Source: Bacillota bacterium (lineage in GTDB: Bacteria > Bacillota > Clostridia > Peptostreptococcales > Anaerovoracaceae). From it: a stretch of DNA of 34,167 nt. Location: contig JAFYNS010000055.1 in assembly GCA_017556505.1 (NCBI GenBank), positions 1 to 34,167 on the forward strand, in the 5' to 3' direction. Each line of letters opens with the position of its first letter. The stretch's first letter is position 1. Shown piece by piece: positions 22,323 through 31,585 of this stretch. The notes under the pieces are model-generated. The model made no database searches. It was not told where the DNA came from and saw nothing but the letters and a program-made list of their open reading frames with translations. A program made the position numbers and the translations under genes.

Positions 22323-23162
22323 TTACTGACGGCTTCCGCAGCCTTCCACACCACAGCTGTCACAGCTTCCGCTGCATCCTTCCGGTGGTTCCGGCATTCC
22401 GTCATGTTTATTCGGATTATACGCTGCCAGGCACACATCCACCATGGTGTCCAGCCAGTTTCCTTCAAATAATTCAATCAGACCTCTGTCACAGGCGCCT
22501 GCAATCTTCGGATTGATTGGCAGCTGTGCCACCGCCGGGATTCCGTATCGGAATGCAACTTCTTCCACATGACTTTCTCCGAAAATCTTATGCTGCTTAC
22601 CACAGTCAGGACATTCGAAGTATGCCATGTTTTCTACCAGTCCAACGATAGGGACATTCATCATATTGGCCATCTTCACTGCCTTTTCCACAATCTGACT
22701 TACCAGTTCCTGCGGGGAAGTTACGATCACCAGGCCATCCAGCGGCAGGGACTGGAACACAGTCAGGGCCACATCGGCGGTTCCCGGAGGCATGTCCACA
22801 TACATTACGTCCACATCGCCCCAGAGTACATCGTTCCAGAACTGCTGAATCACACCGCCCAGCACCGGTCCTCTCCAGACAACCGGATCCGTCGGATCTT
22901 CCAGCAGATTGTTTACAGACATGGTTTTAATACCGGTTTTGGTCACAACGGGGAAGATACCGTCATCGCAGCCGTCTGCAGTCTGTTTCAGACCGAAGGC
23001 AGTAGGAATAGACGGACCGGTAATATCTGCATCTAAAATGGCAGTCTGATAACCCAGCCGCTGGGTTGCTACTGCCAGCATGGAAGTCACAGAAGACTTA
23101 CCTACACCACCCTTACCGGAAACCACACCAATCAGTTTTTTTACATCAGATTTACTGTTCAT
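22323..23162 (-). CDS. mrp: Mrp/NBP35 family P-loop ATPase (iron-sulfur carrier)
   Basis: The 279-residue protein has the deviant Walker A motif GKGGVGKSS at residues 16-24, ILDADITGPSIP, and WGDVDVMYVDMPPGTAD, all diagnostic of the Mrp/NBP35/ApbC family. A CPDC motif sits in the middle, and the C-terminus is Cys-rich (GCSGSCDSCGVEGCGS), suitable for holding an Fe-S cluster. Such proteins deliver Fe-S clusters to apoproteins. A TATAAT -10 is visible upstream on the minus strand near 23197-23202. The small membrane gene follows it. Confidence 0.93.
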   Translation of the reverse strand: MNSKSDVKKLIGVVSGKGGVGKSSVTSMLAVATQRLGYQTAILDADITGPSIPTAFGLKQTADGCDDGIFPVVTKTGIKTMSVNNLLEDPTDPVVWRGPVLGGVIQQFWNDVLWGDVDVMYVDMPPGTADVALTVFQSLPLDGLVIVTSPQELVSQIVEKAVKMANMMNVPIVGLVENMAYFECPDCGKQHKIFGESHVEEVAFRYGIPAVAQLPINPKIAGACDRGLIELFEGNWLDTMVDVCLAAYNPNKHDGMPEPPEGCSGSCDSCGVEGCGSRQ

Positions 23163-23225
23163 AGCTGAACTCTCCTTCTATTTTACATTGACACTTTATT
23201 ATATCACATTCTCACAAAAAACAAC

Positions 23226-23252
23226 AGAAAGTATCAAAAAATGATACTTTCT
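23226..23252 (-). terminator. Terminator of the sigma/serpin operon
   Basis: An exact 11-bp inverted repeat (23226-23236 with 23242-23252, arms AGAAAGTATCA) around AAAAA lies just beyond the second serpin's stop codon. On the minus strand it is followed by a T-rich tract (CTGTTGTTTTTT). Confidence 0.78.
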
Positions 23253-23275
23253 GCACGAATCCCTGATACTTTTGT

Positions 23276-24655
23276 TTACATTTCTGTTACCGTTCCCATG
23301 AACACCGGCACTCCGGTAGAATCGTCGATAATCATATAGAGGAACGGCCGGTCCAGATATACTTCCTTAACATCCAGCATTTCCACGGCTGCACAGTCAT
23401 TTGCCACGATTTCCGTCACTGCCGCTGCACGGGTGCCCTCCGTATCTACTTCAATGAAGGTTTTCTGAAAGACTTTGCTGATGTAAATATTGCCACGGGA
23501 GGATGTGGCCATGCCAGAAAGGTCTGCCTTTTCTGCATCAAAGAGATTCGTTACCCCCAGAACCTCCAGGGCCGGAATCAGATCCACACTGTACTCGCTG
23601 GTGAATACCGGAAGCTTTGTTTTCACAATAGTTTCCGTCTGACTGTCCAGAAGATTCCGCAGGCTGTCTCCGGTCATGCTTTCAATATATTCTGCCAAAG
23701 CTTCTGCCGTCAGCTCCCCGGTGTACTCCCCATAGATTTCTCCGCCGGTCATCGGCTGCCCCGGCTGGTCCGGATAGACACCGTCATACATGATGACACC
23801 CGCTTTCGGCACCAGTGCCACGAAACTGAATCCCCCTTCATACGGCTTCACGAAGCCTTTCACCATATTATCTTCCAGATAACGGGTTTCCTGTCCATAC
23901 ATGAAGTCTGTCTTACTGGTTCCCCCTCCTGCATTGAGGAATTCACCGTTCCCTACGTCTGTTGATTCATACGGGTTCAGCCACTTGGCATCGAAGCAGA
24001 TGGCGTTCAGCAGGCGAATCACTTCGTCCGGTTTGATTTCCTTCACCAGCTCTTCAATCATCCCGTCAGTCTTCTCGCTGCACCAGCGGTTGATATCTTT
24101 TACAGTTCCTTTATCGAATGCTGCCTTAAAGATATCGGCATTGAAATAGCCCTCCGCATCGGCAATAAACTGTTCGTTGACCGTCAGACGCTCCGCGTCG
24201 TCGCGGAACCAGACAGAGCTGGCCGAAGTAAATTTTGCAGGGCGGCCTTCCAGACTGGCCAGGAAAGAACCCAGATAGGCCGTGAAATAGTCGATATCAC
24301 TGCCGATGGCTTCTTCCAGCTGGTCCAGAGTTTCACCGTCAGCTCCCCGGGCTGTCATGGTCAGGGCCGTAATCAGGGACAGCGGTGAAATCATGGTATT
24401 ATCATCTGAGCGGAAACTCTCCCTGAAGATATTTACCGATACGTCAGTCAGTCCCATTTCCTCGCCTACAAAACAGAATCCCTCTCCCAGGTCGCTTGGC
24501 GGCAAATCAGCCACGGAAATCTGCACGGTTTCTCCGCTGCCCGGTCCGCCGGACTGTCCGGATGGTTTTTCCTGCCCTCCGCTCTCAGTCTTACAGGCTG
24601 TCAGTGCGCAGATCATACATAAAATCAAAAGACTCGAAATCCATTTTCTCCTCAT
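23276..24655 (-). CDS. Serpin lipoprotein, second in operon
   Basis: The 459-residue protein has a lipoprotein signal with lipobox LTAC (Cys21), so it should be tethered outside the membrane. The serpin fold is complete: NTMISPLSLITALTMTARGA, LLNAICFDAKW, then the hinge FIEVDTEGTRAAAV and the exit DRPFLYMIIDD. Serpins trap target proteases by inserting the cleaved reactive-centre loop. The small-residue hinge (GTRAAAV) indicates an inhibitory serpin. Counting from the hinge Gly as P15 puts Cys in NDCAA at about P1, though this may shift by one or two. It begins 10 bases after the first serpin, with AGGAGGG as ribosome site. Confidence 0.93.
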   Translation of the reverse strand: MRRKWISSLLILCMICALTACKTESGGQEKPSGQSGGPGSGETVQISVADLPPSDLGEGFCFVGEEMGLTDVSVNIFRESFRSDDNTMISPLSLITALTMTARGADGETLDQLEEAIGSDIDYFTAYLGSFLASLEGRPAKFTSASSVWFRDDAERLTVNEQFIADAEGYFNADIFKAAFDKGTVKDINRWCSEKTDGMIEELVKEIKPDEVIRLLNAICFDAKWLNPYESTDVGNGEFLNAGGGTSKTDFMYGQETRYLEDNMVKGFVKPYEGGFSFVALVPKAGVIMYDGVYPDQPGQPMTGGEIYGEYTGELTAEALAEYIESMTGDSLRNLLDSQTETIVKTKLPVFTSEYSVDLIPALEVLGVTNLFDAEKADLSGMATSSRGNIYISKVFQKTFIEVDTEGTRAAAVTEIVANDCAAVEMLDVKEVYLDRPFLYMIIDDSTGVPVFMGTVTEM

Positions 24656-24665
24656 AAATTCCCTC

Positions 24666-25913
24666 CTATTCTGCCGGATTCATAACCACACCCATGAAAA
24701 TCGGCAGCTGACTGGCATCATCCACGATAGCATATACAAATGGTCGGTTCAGATTCACCACATTCTCCGGCTCCATGGCACTTTCCCCGGGAACAACCAG
24801 TGATACGGCTGCCGCCCGTGTTCCCTGTTCATCTACCTCTATGAATGTTTTCTGGAAGGCCTGGGACACGTACAGGCTTTCCCCATCGATGAGAGCCATC
24901 GGTGTCAGGTCTGCTTTGTCAGGATCGAAAAGGTCAGTGACGCCGCGTTCCTCCATCATTTCAATCAGGTTCATAAATGTCTCTCCGCTGAACTTCGGCA
25001 GAGTGCAGAAGACCTGCTCATCCCGTTTTTCCATAAGCAGGTTTTCCAGCTTGCTTCCGTCAAAGCCTGCCAGATACTCGGCCATGGTCAGACCTTCCTC
25101 CGGCAGAAGAGCCACGAAGCTGTAGCCTTCTTTATATGGACGTACAAACCCTGTGGTGTTTTCATCCATCAGGTAACCAAATTCTTCAGAACGCATGTAG
25201 CTGACCTCCGCAGTATCTCCGTCCTCCAGATAAAACCTGTGGTCAAATATATCACTTTTTTCATAAGGTTCTGCCCACTTTGCATCAAAGCAGACAGCAT
25301 TCACAAGAAACATCATCTGAGCCGGACCAATCTGCGTCAGAATTTCGTCAATCATGTCATCAGTATGATCAGCACACCACTGATTGAGATCCTTTACGGT
25401 GCCGTCATCAAAGGCTGCTTTGAACACTTCCGCATCGTAATATCCCTTCACATTCTGCAGGAACCCATCCTGTATTTCCAGCCGCTTGGTGTCCCGGATC
25501 CAGATGGAATTCGCAATTTCCAGTATCGCGTCTTTTTCCGACGGCAGATTATTTTCCAGATATCGTATATACTGGCTCAGAGCATTGGTATTGTAACCAA
25601 AGAAATGCTCCAGCTGCTGACGGGTCTGACCGCCAGCACCTTCACTGACCATCCCCATCACCTCAATCAAAGACAGCGGTGACATGAGGAAATTTTTATT
25701 CTCTCCGCAGGCAGCCCAGGTATCTGCGAAAAGCTGCTCAGACAGGCTGTGAAGCTTCACAGCCTGAGGATCTTCACTGGTGCAGGTAATGACTTCCACC
25801 AAGTCCGTCAACGTTTCTGTTCCGGATGTGTACCCGGCACTGCAGCCAGTCATTGCAAACGCCGATGTCAGCACTGCCACCAGCAGCACACCCGTCAAAA
25901 TCTTCTTACTCAT
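24666..25913 (-). CDS. Serpin lipoprotein, first in operon
   Basis: The 415-residue protein has a lipobox MTGC (Cys24) after a clear signal peptide. Serpin landmarks are NFLMSPLSLIEVMGMVSEGA, LVNAVCFDAKW, hinge FIEVDEQGTRAAAV and exit NRPFVYAIVDD. The reactive loop VSLVVPGESAMEPEN differs entirely from that of its neighbour, with Ser or Glu near P1 by hinge counting, so the two should inhibit different proteases. Its ATG overlaps the end of the anti-sigma-like gene by 8 bases. Both serpins appear to derive from a duplication, since their frameworks are similar throughout. Confidence 0.94.
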   Translation of the reverse strand: MSKKILTGVLLVAVLTSAFAMTGCSAGYTSGTETLTDLVEVITCTSEDPQAVKLHSLSEQLFADTWAACGENKNFLMSPLSLIEVMGMVSEGAGGQTRQQLEHFFGYNTNALSQYIRYLENNLPSEKDAILEIANSIWIRDTKRLEIQDGFLQNVKGYYDAEVFKAAFDDGTVKDLNQWCADHTDDMIDEILTQIGPAQMMFLVNAVCFDAKWAEPYEKSDIFDHRFYLEDGDTAEVSYMRSEEFGYLMDENTTGFVRPYKEGYSFVALLPEEGLTMAEYLAGFDGSKLENLLMEKRDEQVFCTLPKFSGETFMNLIEMMEERGVTDLFDPDKADLTPMALIDGESLYVSQAFQKTFIEVDEQGTRAAAVSLVVPGESAMEPENVVNLNRPFVYAIVDDASQLPIFMGVVMNPAE

Positions 25914-26532
25914 ACCATCCCACCTCCCCGGTCAGATAGTAGATTTCTTTCTGCTGCGGTTCCCGCTCGATAGTGACGATACAGGTAACCTCATCCATTT
26001 TCAGTTCGGCTGCATCTTCTAATCTTCCGTCAATATGGAACACCTGGCCGTTTTCTGCCAGCCGGTCCACCCAGGCCTGAACTTTTTCTACATCATCAAG
26101 TCCGCCTCCATGGGTTGCAGATGCACTTTTCTCTTCATATAGTTCAATGGTGAAACGAGGCAGGCAGTAATACGCCAGTTCGCTGTCGTTTTCATCGGTC
26201 ACCAGATCATAGATCTCTTTCGGTGGAGCTGCCTGTCCCGGCACAGCACCTGGCGTCACTGTATCCCGGTCTTCTGTGCCCTCTTCACGAAGACAATCTT
26301 CCGCTGTTTCGTTTTCTGTAATGCTCTCCACAGCCGCCCCATCAAAGCTGCCTTCTGCCGCCGCGCCCATGAAATCCAGCACATCCATCTCTGCCAGACC
26401 AAGGGTCAGCACCAGACATGCTGCCGCTGCACTCAGGCCGGAAACCAGTCTCTTTTTATATTTCTTTCTCTTTGCCAGTTCTGCATCCCGCTTGGCATAG
26501 ACACTGGCCAGAAATTCTTCTCTATCTTTCAT
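25906..26532 (-). CDS. Single-pass membrane protein, probable anti-sigma factor
   Basis: The 208-residue protein starts at the ATG 26530-26532, eight bases after GGAGGG; an ATG 6 bases earlier is too close to the ribosome site. About 26 highly charged cytoplasmic residues (KDREEFLASVYAKRDAELAK and onward) precede one membrane helix (about residues 28-45). An extracytoplasmic domain of about 160 residues follows, with no recognised family. Position directly after an ECF sigma gene, with an 11-base overlap, is the standard place for its membrane anti-sigma factor. No zinc (ZAS) motif is seen, so this would be a non-ZAS type. The external domain could sense protease or envelope stress, which is inference. 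Confidence 0.75.
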   Translation of the reverse strand: MKDREEFLASVYAKRDAELAKRKKYKKRLVSGLSAAAACLVLTLGLAEMDVLDFMGAAAEGSFDGAAVESITENETAEDCLREEGTEDRDTVTPGAVPGQAAPPKEIYDLVTDENDSELAYYCLPRFTIELYEEKSASATHGGGLDDVEKVQAWVDRLAENGQVFHIDGRLEDAAELKMDEVTCIVTIEREPQQKEIYYLTGEVGWYE

Positions 26533-27073
26533 TCTCATAGCCCTCCCGCTCCAAAATCTTCCGCAGGGACTGTTTTCCCCTGTACACCAGGTTTTCCACC
26601 TGTTTTCGGTTCTTCTTCATGACACGTGCCGCCTCTTCATGAGACAGGTCCTCGAAGTAAACCAGATGGAGTGCCATCCTGTAATCCTCAGAAATCTCTC
26701 CCAGTGCTCCGTTCAGCAAATGTTTCTCCTCGCTGCCCAGCACCGCATCCTCCAGATTGGAAACCTCAGCCAGCCGCTCCGCCTCATCCAGGGGAACAAC
26801 CTGAAGGCGGGAAGTTTTGCGGAGAAAATCCACGGCCTTATTGCGTCCAATGGTGAAAATCCAGGTTTTCAGGGCACACTGAAAACGGAACCGCTTCGGA
26901 TGAAGCAGCACTTCCACAAACACATCCTCCGCCAGATCCTCAGCAGCATGCAGGTCACCCACATACCGGTACAGGAAAAATATGAGGCTCTCGCGGTATT
27001 CATCCACAATTTCCACGAAAGCGTTTTCGTCGCCAGCCAGAAAACGGCGGTAGCTACTTGCACCGTTATCCAT
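26522..27073 (-). CDS. ECF-type RNA polymerase sigma factor
   Basis: The 183-residue protein has the two-region structure of ECF sigma factors. Region 2 (about residues 10-85) includes FVEIVDEYRESLIFFLYRYVGD, LAEDVFVEVL and TWIFTIGRNKAVDFLR. Region 4 (about 120-175) includes LGEISEDYRMALHLVYFEDL and the helix-turn-helix SHEEAARVMKKNRKQVENLVYRGK. AAAGGAG precedes the ATG by six bases. It is the first gene of the sigma/anti-sigma/serpin operon. Auto-activation is likely, as for most ECF factors, but I did not find a convincing ECF promoter upstream. Confidence 0.94.
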   Translation of the reverse strand: MDNGASSYRRFLAGDENAFVEIVDEYRESLIFFLYRYVGDLHAAEDLAEDVFVEVLLHPKRFRFQCALKTWIFTIGRNKAVDFLRKTSRLQVVPLDEAERLAEVSNLEDAVLGSEEKHLLNGALGEISEDYRMALHLVYFEDLSHEEAARVMKKNRKQVENLVYRGKQSLRKILEREGYENER

Positions 27074-27160
27074 AGCAAACTCCTTTCATCCCTTTTGTAT
27101 CTATTCGTCGGTCCGGAGCCGCAAATCACTCACCTTAATTTTACAATAATTATAAAAAAA

Positions 27161-27216: not shown

Positions 27217-28416
27217 ATGGCTGAAAAGAAAAAAAACGTAAAACCCATCGGGAAACCAAACCCGTTCCTATACTACCCGCTGGCCTATGTGGCCGGGGCC
27301 ATCTTCAAGCTGGTGTGCCGTGTGAAGATTGACCGTTCAGCCCTGCAAAACATCCAGGGTCCGGCGTTCATCGTCTGCCCGCACATTTCCAACATCGACT
27401 TTATTCTGGTGGCTCTGGCGCTGCTGCCGCACCGTCCGAATTTTGTGACCAGTGAGCATTTCATGGCCCGTCCGCTGATCCGCTGGTTCCTGACGAAGAT
27501 GGCAGTCATTCCGAAAAAAATGTACTGTGCCGATATCCGGGCTATGCGGAGCATTCTTCAGGCGAAGGATCAGGGACATCTGATTGTAATCTTCCCGGAA
27601 GGACGCCTGTCCTGCTTCGGTCACTCTGTAAACCTGACCGACGGTACAGCAGAGCTGGTGAAAAAGCTTGGCATCAATGTATATACCGTTACCGGAAACG
27701 GTGCTTACCTGACCCTGCCGAAATGGGGCAAGGCTGGTCTTCGCCCTGGTCGGATCCAGGTTGAAAGCCTTAAGCTTCTGGATGCAGAAGCCATTCCTGA
27801 TATGAGCGTAGCTGAAATTCAGGAAGTCCTGGAACTGGCCATTCTCCATGACGAGGACAAGGTTGCCCGGGAAATGATGTCCGGTGTGAAATATAAGTGC
27901 AAAGCACCTGCAGAAGGGCTGGACGGAATCCTCTATAAATGCCCGGAATGCGGAGCCGAATTCCGCATGGAAACTTCCGGCAGCCTGATCCGCTGCAGTG
28001 CCTGCGGACTGGAAGCAAAACTGGATGAAAGCTATGTACTTCACGGCGGTCCATTTAAATCCATTAACGAGTGGTTCTTCTGGCAGATGGAACAGATTGA
28101 CCTGGATGTGCCTCTGGAAAGTGAAACGATCGTCATCGCGGTAGGTCCTGACGGCAACCGTGACTTCAATGCCGGTTCCGGCACCATCCGCATGGACCGT
28201 GAAATGATTCATTTTAAAGGAACTGTCTTTGGCGAGGCACTGGAATTCGAGGAAACAACCCGCAGCGTCAAGGCCTTCCCTGCTGCGGTAGGCAGCCACT
28301 TCGACCTCTATCACAACAAGATTATGTACAACTTCCGCCTTCAGCCGGATCCGAGAGCAAACATGAAATGGGTTGCCTTCCTGGATAGGTTGAATAATAA
28401 TGTGAGAGTGGAGTAG
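27217..28416 (+). CDS. PlsC-type acyltransferase fused to a zinc ribbon and C-terminal domain
   Basis: The 399-residue protein has the acyltransferase motifs: His56 and Asp61 of HISNID (HX4D) and FPEGR at 126-130. This makes it a 1-acylglycerol-3-phosphate acyltransferase-like enzyme at the inner membrane, probably making phosphatidic acid. Typical PlsC ends near residue 240. Here a zinc ribbon follows: CPEC (Cys242, Cys245) and CSAC (Cys260, Cys263). After it comes a beta-rich domain of about 130 residues, including IVIAVGPDGNRDFNAG and WVAFLDRLNN. AAGGAGG lies seven bases ahead of the start. The added domains might regulate the enzyme or bind a partner. Confidence 0.88.
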   Translation: MAEKKKNVKPIGKPNPFLYYPLAYVAGAIFKLVCRVKIDRSALQNIQGPAFIVCPHISNIDFILVALALLPHRPNFVTSEHFMARPLIRWFLTKMAVIPKKMYCADIRAMRSILQAKDQGHLIVIFPEGRLSCFGHSVNLTDGTAELVKKLGINVYTVTGNGAYLTLPKWGKAGLRPGRIQVESLKLLDAEAIPDMSVAEIQEVLELAILHDEDKVAREMMSGVKYKCKAPAEGLDGILYKCPECGAEFRMETSGSLIRCSACGLEAKLDESYVLHGGPFKSINEWFFWQMEQIDLDVPLESETIVIAVGPDGNRDFNAGSGTIRMDREMIHFKGTVFGEALEFEETTRSVKAFPAAVGSHFDLYHNKIMYNFRLQPDPRANMKWVAFLDRLNNNVRVE

Positions 28417-29677: not shown

Positions 29678-30061
29678 TCAGTTCCCTTTCGGTGACTTTG
29701 GTGTAAAAATCAGTGATATCACATATCCAAATGCAATAGCCACCGCAATTCCCGCTGAGGTTGCCTTCAGAGGACCCATAATTGCCTCTAAAAAGCCCTT
29801 TTCAGCCCCTTCCATGGCACCTTTGGCAAGATTGTACCCAAACCCCGGAAGAGGCACTGTAGCCCCGTTTCCGGCCAGTTTTACCAGTGGTTCATAAAGA
29901 CCCACTGCCTGCAGAATTACGCCGGACACCACGAAAATCACGAGAATCCTCGGAGCGGTCAGTGTGGTTGCGTCCATAAGAATCTGTCCAATCAGGCAGA
30001 ACCCTCCGCCAATCACAAAGGCCCACACATAGTCCATCAGTCCGTTCAATATACCTTCCAT
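29678..30061 (-). CDS. spoVAE: Stage V sporulation protein AE
   Basis: The 127-residue membrane protein has three to four hydrophobic segments and the SpoVAE/SpoVAEb signatures: WAFVIGGGFCLIGQILMD, PRILVIFVVSGVILQAVGLYEPLVKLAGNGATVPLPGFG and GYVISLIFTPK. With SpoVAC and SpoVAD it forms the minimal channel complex that loads and releases calcium dipicolinate in spores. Its ATG follows the SpoVAD stop codon directly (TAAATG). Length and order match Clostridia. Confidence 0.95.
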   Translation of the reverse strand: MEGILNGLMDYVWAFVIGGGFCLIGQILMDATTLTAPRILVIFVVSGVILQAVGLYEPLVKLAGNGATVPLPGFGYNLAKGAMEGAEKGFLEAIMGPLKATSAGIAVAIAFGYVISLIFTPKSPKGN

Positions 30062-31099
30062 TTACTCCACCTCCAGTGAAATTGCATGTGCGATTCCCGG
30101 TATGCTTTCCCCCTGCAGCGGCGAAATGACAGACAGCATGGCTCCAGTTGACATAAGCAGTACTTTTTTCAGTTCTCCCTGCTCCATCCGCTGCAGCAGA
30201 TGCCCTGCAAAAACCGATGCCGAACACCCGCATCCGCTTCCGCCGCTGTGCACATCCTGATCTTTGGTATACAGCATGGTGCCGCAGTCATCATAGCGTT
30301 CCCGGACTTTTGCAGAAGGGAGCCCCGCATCCACAAGCAGATCCATGACAATTTCCCTGCCGATGAATCCCAGGTCGCCGCTGACCACCAGGTCGTAGTA
30401 ATCAATCCCACGCCCCGTATCCTGAAGATGATTCAGCAAAGTATCCACGGCTGCCGGTGCCATGGCCGCCCCCATCTGATTGGCATCTTTAATTCCCGCA
30501 TCGATAACCCGCCCGATGGTTGCGGCTTCTGCCCGTATCCGCGGTATTCCAGGTCCCGGAGGCTGTCCTGAAATCACCACTGCGCCTGCTGCTGTAGCCG
30601 TCCACTGGGCCGATGGAGGGCGCTGATTTCCGTGCTCCACCGGCAGACGGAACTGACGCTCTGCCGTACAGAAATGAGAGGATGCACCTGCCAGCACATT
30701 CTCTGCAAACCCTCCATCAATCAGAATAGAGCCCAGCACAAGAGACTCCGTCATCGTGGAACAGGCACCATAGAGCCCCAGGAAGGGAATATGCATGTCC
30801 CGGGCCATAAAGGAAGAGGACATGAGCTGATTCAGCAGATCTCCGCTGAGCATCACATCGATGTTTTCTTTTTCCAGGCCTGCACGCTGAACCGCCTTCA
30901 TCATGGCATCCTTCAGCATTTTGCTTTCTGCCTTCTCCCAGGATTTTTCCCCGTACATATCGTCCTGCAGCACTATATCAAAACAGCTTCCCAAAGGGCC
31001 GCTGCCTTCTTTTTTCCCAACCACAGTACCCCGCCCTCTGATCCAGGCTCCCGACGGGAAAAGCATACTCTGTGACCCGATTTTCTTTAATGCCATCAT
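30062..31099 (-). CDS. spoVAD: Stage V sporulation protein AD
   Basis: The 345-residue soluble protein has the thiolase-like fold typical of SpoVAD. Visible motifs are GSCFDIVLQDDMYGEKSWEKAES, GLYGACSTMTESLVLGSILI and DLGFIGREIVMDLL, with CGTMLYTKDQDVHSGGSGCGCSA near the C-terminus. SpoVAD binds dipicolinic acid during spore filling. The start is one of two adjacent ATGs (31097-31099 or 31094-31096), right after the SpoVAC stop. Middle gene of the spoVA cluster. Confidence 0.96.
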   Translation of the reverse strand: MMALKKIGSQSMLFPSGAWIRGRGTVVGKKEGSGPLGSCFDIVLQDDMYGEKSWEKAESKMLKDAMMKAVQRAGLEKENIDVMLSGDLLNQLMSSSFMARDMHIPFLGLYGACSTMTESLVLGSILIDGGFAENVLAGASSHFCTAERQFRLPVEHGNQRPPSAQWTATAAGAVVISGQPPGPGIPRIRAEAATIGRVIDAGIKDANQMGAAMAPAAVDTLLNHLQDTGRGIDYYDLVVSGDLGFIGREIVMDLLVDAGLPSAKVRERYDDCGTMLYTKDQDVHSGGSGCGCSASVFAGHLLQRMEQGELKKVLLMSTGAMLSVISPLQGESIPGIAHAISLEVE

Positions 31100-31585
31100 C
31101 TATACCCCCTGTATTCTTCCAATCATCCAGTAAATCAGACCTACCGCTACGGCTGCCGATATGCCGCAGACCAGAACCGGTCCTGCCACAGTAAAGAGCT
31201 TGGAACCTACACCCAGCACAGGCCCTTCTTTTTTGTATTCGATAGCCGGCGCCACCATGGAATTGGCAAACCCTGTAATAGGTACAATAACCCCTGCCCC
31301 TGCGAATTTTGCCAGGGAATCGAAGACTCCCAATCCGGTAAGAAGCTGGGCACTCACCACCAGGAGAATGGTCACGAAAGCCCCTGCATCTGTTTCACTC
31401 ATTCCTCCATCCTGCAGCCGCTTCTGCAGCCAGAATGCGGCAGTACAGATCAGGCCGCCCACCAGAAAGGCTTTGATTCCATTGCTTACATATGCAGGAC
31501 TGGGAGTAAACTGCTTCACATAGTCTCCGTAGGCCTTGCCGATATCCTTCCTCAGCTTTTTTTCCTTTTCATCACTGTCTTTCAT
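31100..31585 (-). CDS. spoVAC: Stage V sporulation protein AC
   Basis: The 161-residue membrane protein has a charged N-terminus with YGDYVKQFTPSPAYVSNGIKAFLVGGLICT, a family hallmark. VVSAQLLTGLGVFDSLAKFAGAGVIVPITGFANSMVAPAIEYKKEG and several helices follow. It forms a mechanosensitive-like channel needed for dipicolinate uptake into spores. It is the first gene of spoVAC-D-E and is preceded by a forespore-type promoter candidate at 31616-31645. Confidence 0.96.
   Translation of the reverse strand: MKDSDEKEKKLRKDIGKAYGDYVKQFTPSPAYVSNGIKAFLVGGLICTAAFWLQKRLQDGGMSETDAGAFVTILLVVSAQLLTGLGVFDSLAKFAGAGVIVPITGFANSMVAPAIEYKKEGPVLGVGSKLFTVAGPVLVCGISAAVAVGLIYWMIGRIQGV

Follow-up and report, generated by a model that had tools for sequence, protein, structure and literature searches.

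Why would a bacterium place two protease inhibitors behind a sigma factor of their own? The window that raises this question is the whole stretch of DNA analyzed here, 34,167 nucleotides (nt) of contig JAFYNS010000055.1 (assembly GCA_017556505.1), from a Bacillota bacterium of the family Anaerovoracaceae. According to the open reading frame calls, its minus strand carries, in order, the genes for an extracytoplasmic function (ECF) sigma factor, a protein with a single transmembrane (TM) helix that we call asf for presumed anti-sigma factor, and two lipoprotein serpins (serpin 1 and serpin 2), followed by a terminator and then by mrp (Table 1). The purpose and timing of bacterial serpins are poorly known, and a sigma switch, together with anti-sigma factors that have a serpin as ectodomain, gives a testable answer. 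On the evidence below, we lean, by a small measure, toward the reading that the four genes form a dedicated and self-limiting circuit, a homeostat, directed against extracellular proteases.

The operon, its promoter, and their conservation

The four genes overlap or nearly touch. As called, the sigma factor and asf genes overlap by 17 nt, which becomes 11 nt if asf starts at the ATG at 26532; this start is more likely than the one at 26538, since every orthologue begins with MK..EF. The asf and serpin 1 genes overlap by 8 nt, and 10 nt separate serpin 1 from serpin 2. A preliminary description of the window, made from its sequence, had proposed four overlapping or near-touching minus-strand genes ended by one terminator, and both the reading frames and the strong terminator-like hairpin (at 23254-23224) bear this out. 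The sigma factor has the composition of an ECF protein, with regions 2 and 4 only in ~180 amino acids (aa), and is 64-68% identical to its orthologues within the genus and 40-66% identical to those beyond it.

A predicted autoregulatory promoter lies 5' of the sigma gene, and orthologous operons carry the same pair of elements in the same place and at a fixed spacing (GTGAG[GT]G[AT]TTT-N12-CGAC[GT]AA, with the core GTGAG-N18-CGAC). When whole genomes from three genera were searched with up to two mismatches allowed, the operon was the best or joint-best match in 10/10, so that an autoregulated -35/-10 promoter at fixed spacing is found, at the level of the motif, in all ten. Only three matches lay elsewhere in these genomes: two had two mismatches, and one is a credible extra target, in G043. 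As a control, the reversed pattern gave 1 match across all ten genomes. The single two-mismatch site in the window's own genome (G000:C68) was discounted as a second target; it lies inside the rseP coding sequence. Since the operon is the best or joint-best match throughout, the targets of the sigma factor seem to be confined essentially to its own operon, and in terms of motifs it looks dedicated to these serpins. A search of the whole 2.4-Mb genome found no serpins besides serpin 1 and serpin 2. The preliminary description's suggestion that the serpins are the dedicated output of their own sigma pair thus agrees with a single conserved ECF-type promoter, with the rank of that promoter in ten genomes, and with a genome that holds no other serpin.

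The serpin locus was present in 5/5 genomes of the genus (g1), and wherever contigs permit, the order is acyltransferase (divergent), sigma factor, asf, serpin, serpin, mrp. The same order, with mostly the same flanks, was found in g69, a genus of the same family (five genomes, one of them cut by a contig end). In a third genus of the family, g40 (L073), the sigma operon has a single serpin, and in two other families of the class (f20 and f206; L251 and L348) a window-type sigma factor is accompanied by one serpin and by an asf that resembles the window's.

We scored a serpin as linked when it lay within three co-directional genes of an ECF sigma gene. By this measure, 25/99 serpins of the family were linked, versus 7/784 background genes, counts that include orthologous operons and hence are not independent. 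The figure of 25/99 is an undercount, since automatic gene calling missed asf in L040 and its two serpins were scored as unlinked. Outside the family, linkage was seen for 6/99 serpins in a sample biased to the best-scoring ones and for 8/94 in another. The conserved gene order and the difference between 25/99 and 7/784 led us to reject chance adjacency of the sigma factor and the serpins. Linked serpins span ten families and stand behind several unrelated sigma/anti-sigma types, including a locus with a zf-HC2 anti-sigma factor (L056). An inhibitory-type hinge was present in 31/31 linked serpins of the sample, a few of which have a larger residue at P9.

Serpins as such proved to be more common than the preliminary description, which had called them rare in bacteria, had supposed: the sampled genomes with a serpin numbered 75/298 in the family, 82/346 in the order, 123/291 in the class, and 75/399 in the phylum. 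The possibility, raised at the same time, that homologous serpin pairs always occur without the sigma pair does not hold for the pairs of g1 and g69, where the sigma factor is present, though there are other tandem serpins that have no sigma factor.

Fusion of serpins to sigma-adjacent membrane proteins

At no fewer than 14 loci, the sigma gene is directly followed by a gene, usually overlapping it by ATGA, whose single-chain product starts with about 25-95 cytoplasmic residues and continues through a TM helix into a whole serpin. These fusions were found within the family (L047, L144, L146, L152, L154, L157, L162, and L163) and beyond it (L252, L254, L255, L260, L317, and L318), with two further ones at contig ends, and they are spread over five families (f1, f31, f73, f162, and f206). 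The L047 fusion accompanies a window-type sigma factor and has an asf-like N-terminus; the sigma factors of the remaining fusions belong to other ECF types. ECF-like promoters could be read by eye upstream of several of these loci, in the form TGTAAGAT...CGTGTATA 5' of L154, L157, and L162 and in the form TGTAACC...CGT (about 15-16 nt) 5' of L144, L146, and L152.

A tree built from 158 serpins requires 8 changes of the fusion label, 7 of which are forced by branches with good support, and likewise 8 changes of the operon label. These changes imply that the link between sigma factors and serpins arose or was lost several times. In the fusions, the presumed anti-sigma factor has the serpin as its ectodomain, and such sigma-linked proteins suggest, if indirectly, that proteases are what is sensed.

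The membrane protein as a likely anti-sigma factor

The asf protein is predicted to begin with a cytoplasmic segment of about 30 residues, which leads into a single TM helix (about residues 33-50), a disordered linker of about 75 residues, and an ectodomain of about 75 residues. Across 10 orthologues, the conserved motifs are MK.R.EF or MK...EF...K (K16) and AAC, and conservation is strongest at the cytoplasmic N-terminus and the beginning of the TM helix. The AlphaFold2 model of asf is weak (mean predicted local distance difference test score of 54), with residues 128-202 better than the rest; it consists of a helix at the N-terminus (6-31), a disordered stretch that extends to about residue 125, and a small alpha/beta domain (about 128-202).

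Searches of Pfam and NCBIfam gave no match to asf. A zinc anti-sigma (ZAS, zf-HC2) assignment was rejected, as the HxxxCxxC motif is absent, in accord with the preliminary description's call of a non-ZAS membrane protein. Neither RsgI nor RsiV fits: no RsgI_N domain was found by Pfam or NCBIfam and the sigma factor has ECF regions and is not SigI, and the same two databases returned no RsiV-type lysozyme-binding ectodomain. Taken together, the position and topology of asf, its N-terminal motif, its co-conservation with the sigma factor, and the fusions make it likely that this TM protein is an anti-sigma factor. Asf could be a substrate of regulated intramembrane proteolysis, in that it has a single TM helix and the genome encodes a canonical RseP-type site-2 protease with HELGH and PDZ (in G000:C68).

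The serpins of the window

Both serpin domains are complete, with PF00079 matches that reach the profile end, and lipoboxes could be read in both sequences (AMTG-C24, with Cys24, in serpin 1 and LTA-C21, with Cys21, in serpin 2). By sequence match alone, both come closest to tengpin among solved structures (PDB 2pef and 2vh4; 4e-80 for serpin 1 and 2e-80 for serpin 2); relative to tengpin, serpin 2 has about 30 residues inserted near 288-320. As criteria for a mobile hinge we used Gly at P15, an uncharged residue at P14, small residues at P12-P9, and Thr or Ser at P8; the window serpins read GTRAAAVS and GTRAAAVT in this region, and both are probably suicide inhibitors of proteases. An arms race with fast-evolving reactive loops was considered and rejected, as the loop is about as conserved as the body of the protein in most of 10 close pairs. 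Since the reactive loops mostly evolve no faster than the remainder, stable targets are favored over an arms race.

The window's serpin 1 (24666-25913) falls among the serpins that hold the second position in related operons, outside the first-position clade (support 92), and the first serpin may therefore have been replaced in the window's lineage.

A proposed protease-responsive circuit and its alternatives

In the circuit that we propose, the short cytoplasmic helix of asf would hold the ECF sigma factor in the resting state. An attack at the cell surface would destabilize asf, most likely when an outside protease cuts the exposed, disordered linker; the destabilizing trigger could be proteolysis or the consumption of serpins. 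The RseP-type site-2 protease would then free the sigma factor, which would read the promoter of its own operon and thereby yield more sigma factor, more asf, and the two lipid-anchored serpins. The serpins, to judge from their family and hinge, would trap proteases by suicide inhibition, newly made asf would survive, and the circuit would shut off. The same logic may apply to the fused relatives, in which the inhibitor itself would be the sensor. We extend this tentatively to the possibility that serpins act as transmembrane protease sensors: the suicide reaction of the fused ectodomain (loop cleavage and S-to-R refolding) would release the ECF sigma factor from the cytoplasmic end of the chain, and the split operon of the window would be a two-part version, with the same job shared between separate lipoprotein serpins and a small protein in the membrane.

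The fusions also lend themselves to a reading in which the state of the serpin is the signal. An unreacted serpin at the surface would stabilize the asf ectodomain, a protease-complexed or cleaved serpin (S-to-R) would release asf, and the fusions would unite sensor and inhibitor in one chain. Their number and spread over families, the presence of a window-type sigma factor beside one of them, and the independent sigma-serpin links on the tree speak for this reading. We nevertheless consider it unlikely; in the window, the serpins are separate lipoproteins, asf has a small domain of its own, and contact between asf and the serpins is putative.

Several observations weigh against the protease-directed circuit itself. 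Three genomes of genus g20 (L125/L126/L127; G023, G221, and G151) carry the acyltransferase, sigma, asf, and mrp genes and no serpin; these loci retain the promoter-like motif, and the ectodomain of their asf is a different one. Other cargo accompanies related sigma/asf modules elsewhere in the class, and the majority of the family's serpins have no sigma gene nearby. The extra promoter copy in G043 (C1; L101:1501-2412), the only credible second target, lies 60 nt 5' of a gene for a 273-aa DUF3221-like lipoprotein, whose apparent likeness to serpins was dismissed because the match covered its signal peptide alone. A Foldseek search with the ectodomain of the weak asf model found no PDB match to its fold, with nothing under E 0.07. 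The serpin-less g20 loci and the modules with other cargo point to a modular chassis that in some cases may respond to a signal other than proteolysis.

Those same loci and modules, along with the non-serpin target in G043, would suit a general envelope-stress ECF system, in which the sigma factor answers some other signal (cell-wall damage, peptides, or bile) and the serpins are cargo joined to it by chance. We give this explanation little credence, since random cargo fails to explain why serpins stand behind several unrelated ECF/anti-sigma types and also form an ectodomain. Lastly, it is very improbable that the TM protein is a membrane anchor or partner of the serpins, with the sigma factor controlled otherwise: the absence of any Pfam or NCBIfam match to a known anti-sigma domain and a cytoplasmic part of only about 30 residues would allow this, but the protein is always encoded directly 3' of the sigma factor, even in serpin-less loci, its cytoplasmic N-terminus (MK..EF, K16) is its most conserved part, and the fusions retain both the cytoplasmic segment and the TM helix.

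Features of the window and observations on related loci

Table 1. Positions of the operon, its predicted elements, and its flanking genes in the window
Feature	Position	Strand	Evidence or remark
Predicted autoregulatory ECF promoter, GTGAGTGATTT-N12-CGACGAA, 5' of sigma gene	27104-27133	-	0 mismatches; sole match in window
ECF sigma factor, 183 aa, regions 2 and 4 only	26522-27073	-	PF04542 (Sigma70_r2) 2e-15; PF08281 (r4_2) 1.2e-9; TIGR02937 5e-26
Presumed anti-sigma factor (asf), 210 aa as called	25906-26538, likely start 26532	-	Position, topology, conserved N-terminus
Serpin 1, lipoprotein, 415 aa	24666-25913	-	PF00079 5.6e-80
Hinge and reactive-center loop of serpin 1, GTRAAAVSLVVPGESAMEPENVVN	24752-24824	-	Inhibitory-type hinge EQGTRAAAVS; small residues around presumed P1
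Serpin 2, lipoprotein, 459 aa	23276-24655	-	PF00079 1.8e-72, split over two stretches
Hinge and reactive-center loop of serpin 2, GTRAAAVTEIVANDCAAVEMLDVKEVY	23356-23437	-	Inhibitory-type hinge
Intrinsic terminator 3' of serpin 2	23224-23254	-	Predicted hairpin, 13-bp stem then T-run TGTTTTTTGT
Flank: Mrp/NUBPL-type Fe-S carrier ATPase (mrp), outside system	22323-23162	-	PF10609 4.9e-86; neighbor kept in g1, g69, g20
Flank: acyltransferase with Zn ribbon, outside system	27217-28416	+	PF01553 5e-14; neighbor kept in g1, g69, g20

The window also contains spoVA-like genes at 29678-31585, with SpoVAD recognized by Pfam at 30062-31099, and the organism is therefore probably a spore former. A search with serpin 1 led to one close relative, a metagenome-assembled genome from water-buffalo caecum (RGIG7179) with a contig whose content matches C143 of G001, which makes a gut habitat likely for the genus. 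The serpin 1 gene of a sister species (L042:1-948, in G001) has an in-frame TAA and runs off its contig, so that either the gene is broken or the assembly is in error.

Other arrangements were seen among relatives. Other serpins of the family (in L049, L059, L063, L081, L090, and L095) are fused to apparent surface-anchoring modules (resembling S-layer homology domains or cell-wall-binding repeats), and L059 has three serpins in tandem; these represent several ways of holding serpins at the surface. Two loci (L077 and L092, in G105 and G180) join serpins to a different ECF/anti-sigma type, and their serpins share a clade with the first serpin of window-type operons, which suggests the same serpin lineage with an exchanged regulator. 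Elsewhere in the class, window-type sigma factors in L364, L365, L366, and L367 accompany other TM proteins and other cargo, such as lipoproteins, and represent a modular sigma/anti-sigma chassis that belongs to no described family.

Relation to known systems

Our literature search, which had subscription papers outside its scope, found no paper that combines serpins with an ECF sigma/anti-sigma pair. The preliminary description had likewise known of no such system, and neither the sigma-serpin operon nor the TM-serpin fusion is described in the literature that we found. Together, the operon and the fusions point to a mode of protease sensing and resistance in bacteria that has not been described before. 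If this is true, gut Bacillota would watch for proteolysis on their surface and answer it with inhibitors, the irreversible conformational change of an inhibitor would be read across the membrane as a new signaling principle, and a bacterial reporter for intestinal protease activity might become possible.

Bacterial serpins with known activity include the siropins of gut Eubacterium (PMC5127057) and the cellulosomal serpin PinA (PMC12484212), which act on host or subtilisin-like proteases. The serpins of the window resemble them as gut or secreted serpins of Bacillota; unlike the window serpins, siropins and PinA had no sigma-linked operon in the literature searched. The serpin gene of Bifidobacterium breve is protease induced and has a neighboring regulator, a two-component system (Alvarez-Martin 2012, as reported in PMC8012564). 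A serpin gene with an adjoining regulator is thus common to both, and protease induction is a feature of B. breve. As far as that secondary account goes, the systems differ in that this member of the Actinobacteria uses a two-component system in place of a sigma/anti-sigma pair and its regulator is not fused to the serpin.

In the SigV/RsiV system of Bacillus and C. difficile, an ECF sigma factor is freed by regulated intramembrane proteolysis when lysozyme, a host enzyme, attacks the surface, and the output protects against lysozyme (PMC4183432 and PMC9044953). The circuit proposed here would be similar, with release of an ECF sigma factor after an enzyme attacks the surface and with an output that protects against that enzyme. 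It would differ in that the lysozyme-binding domain of RsiV was not found in asf and in that SigV/RsiV is not known to involve serpins.

A parallel in design is SigI/RsgI of Clostridium thermocellum and Acetivibrio, in which a membrane anti-sigma factor has an ectodomain made of carbohydrate-binding modules or glycoside hydrolases, the same kind of protein as the products under its control, and a polysaccharide is the ligand (PMC12484212 and PMC3413522). As in that system, the ectodomain of the presumed anti-sigma factor in the fusions resembles the output, a serpin in one case and a carbohydrate-binding module or glycoside hydrolase in the other, and there is one sigma factor per sensor. In contrast to SigI/RsgI, the sigma factor of the serpin operon is not of the SigI type, no RsgI domain was found, and the presumed ligand is a protease rather than a polysaccharide.

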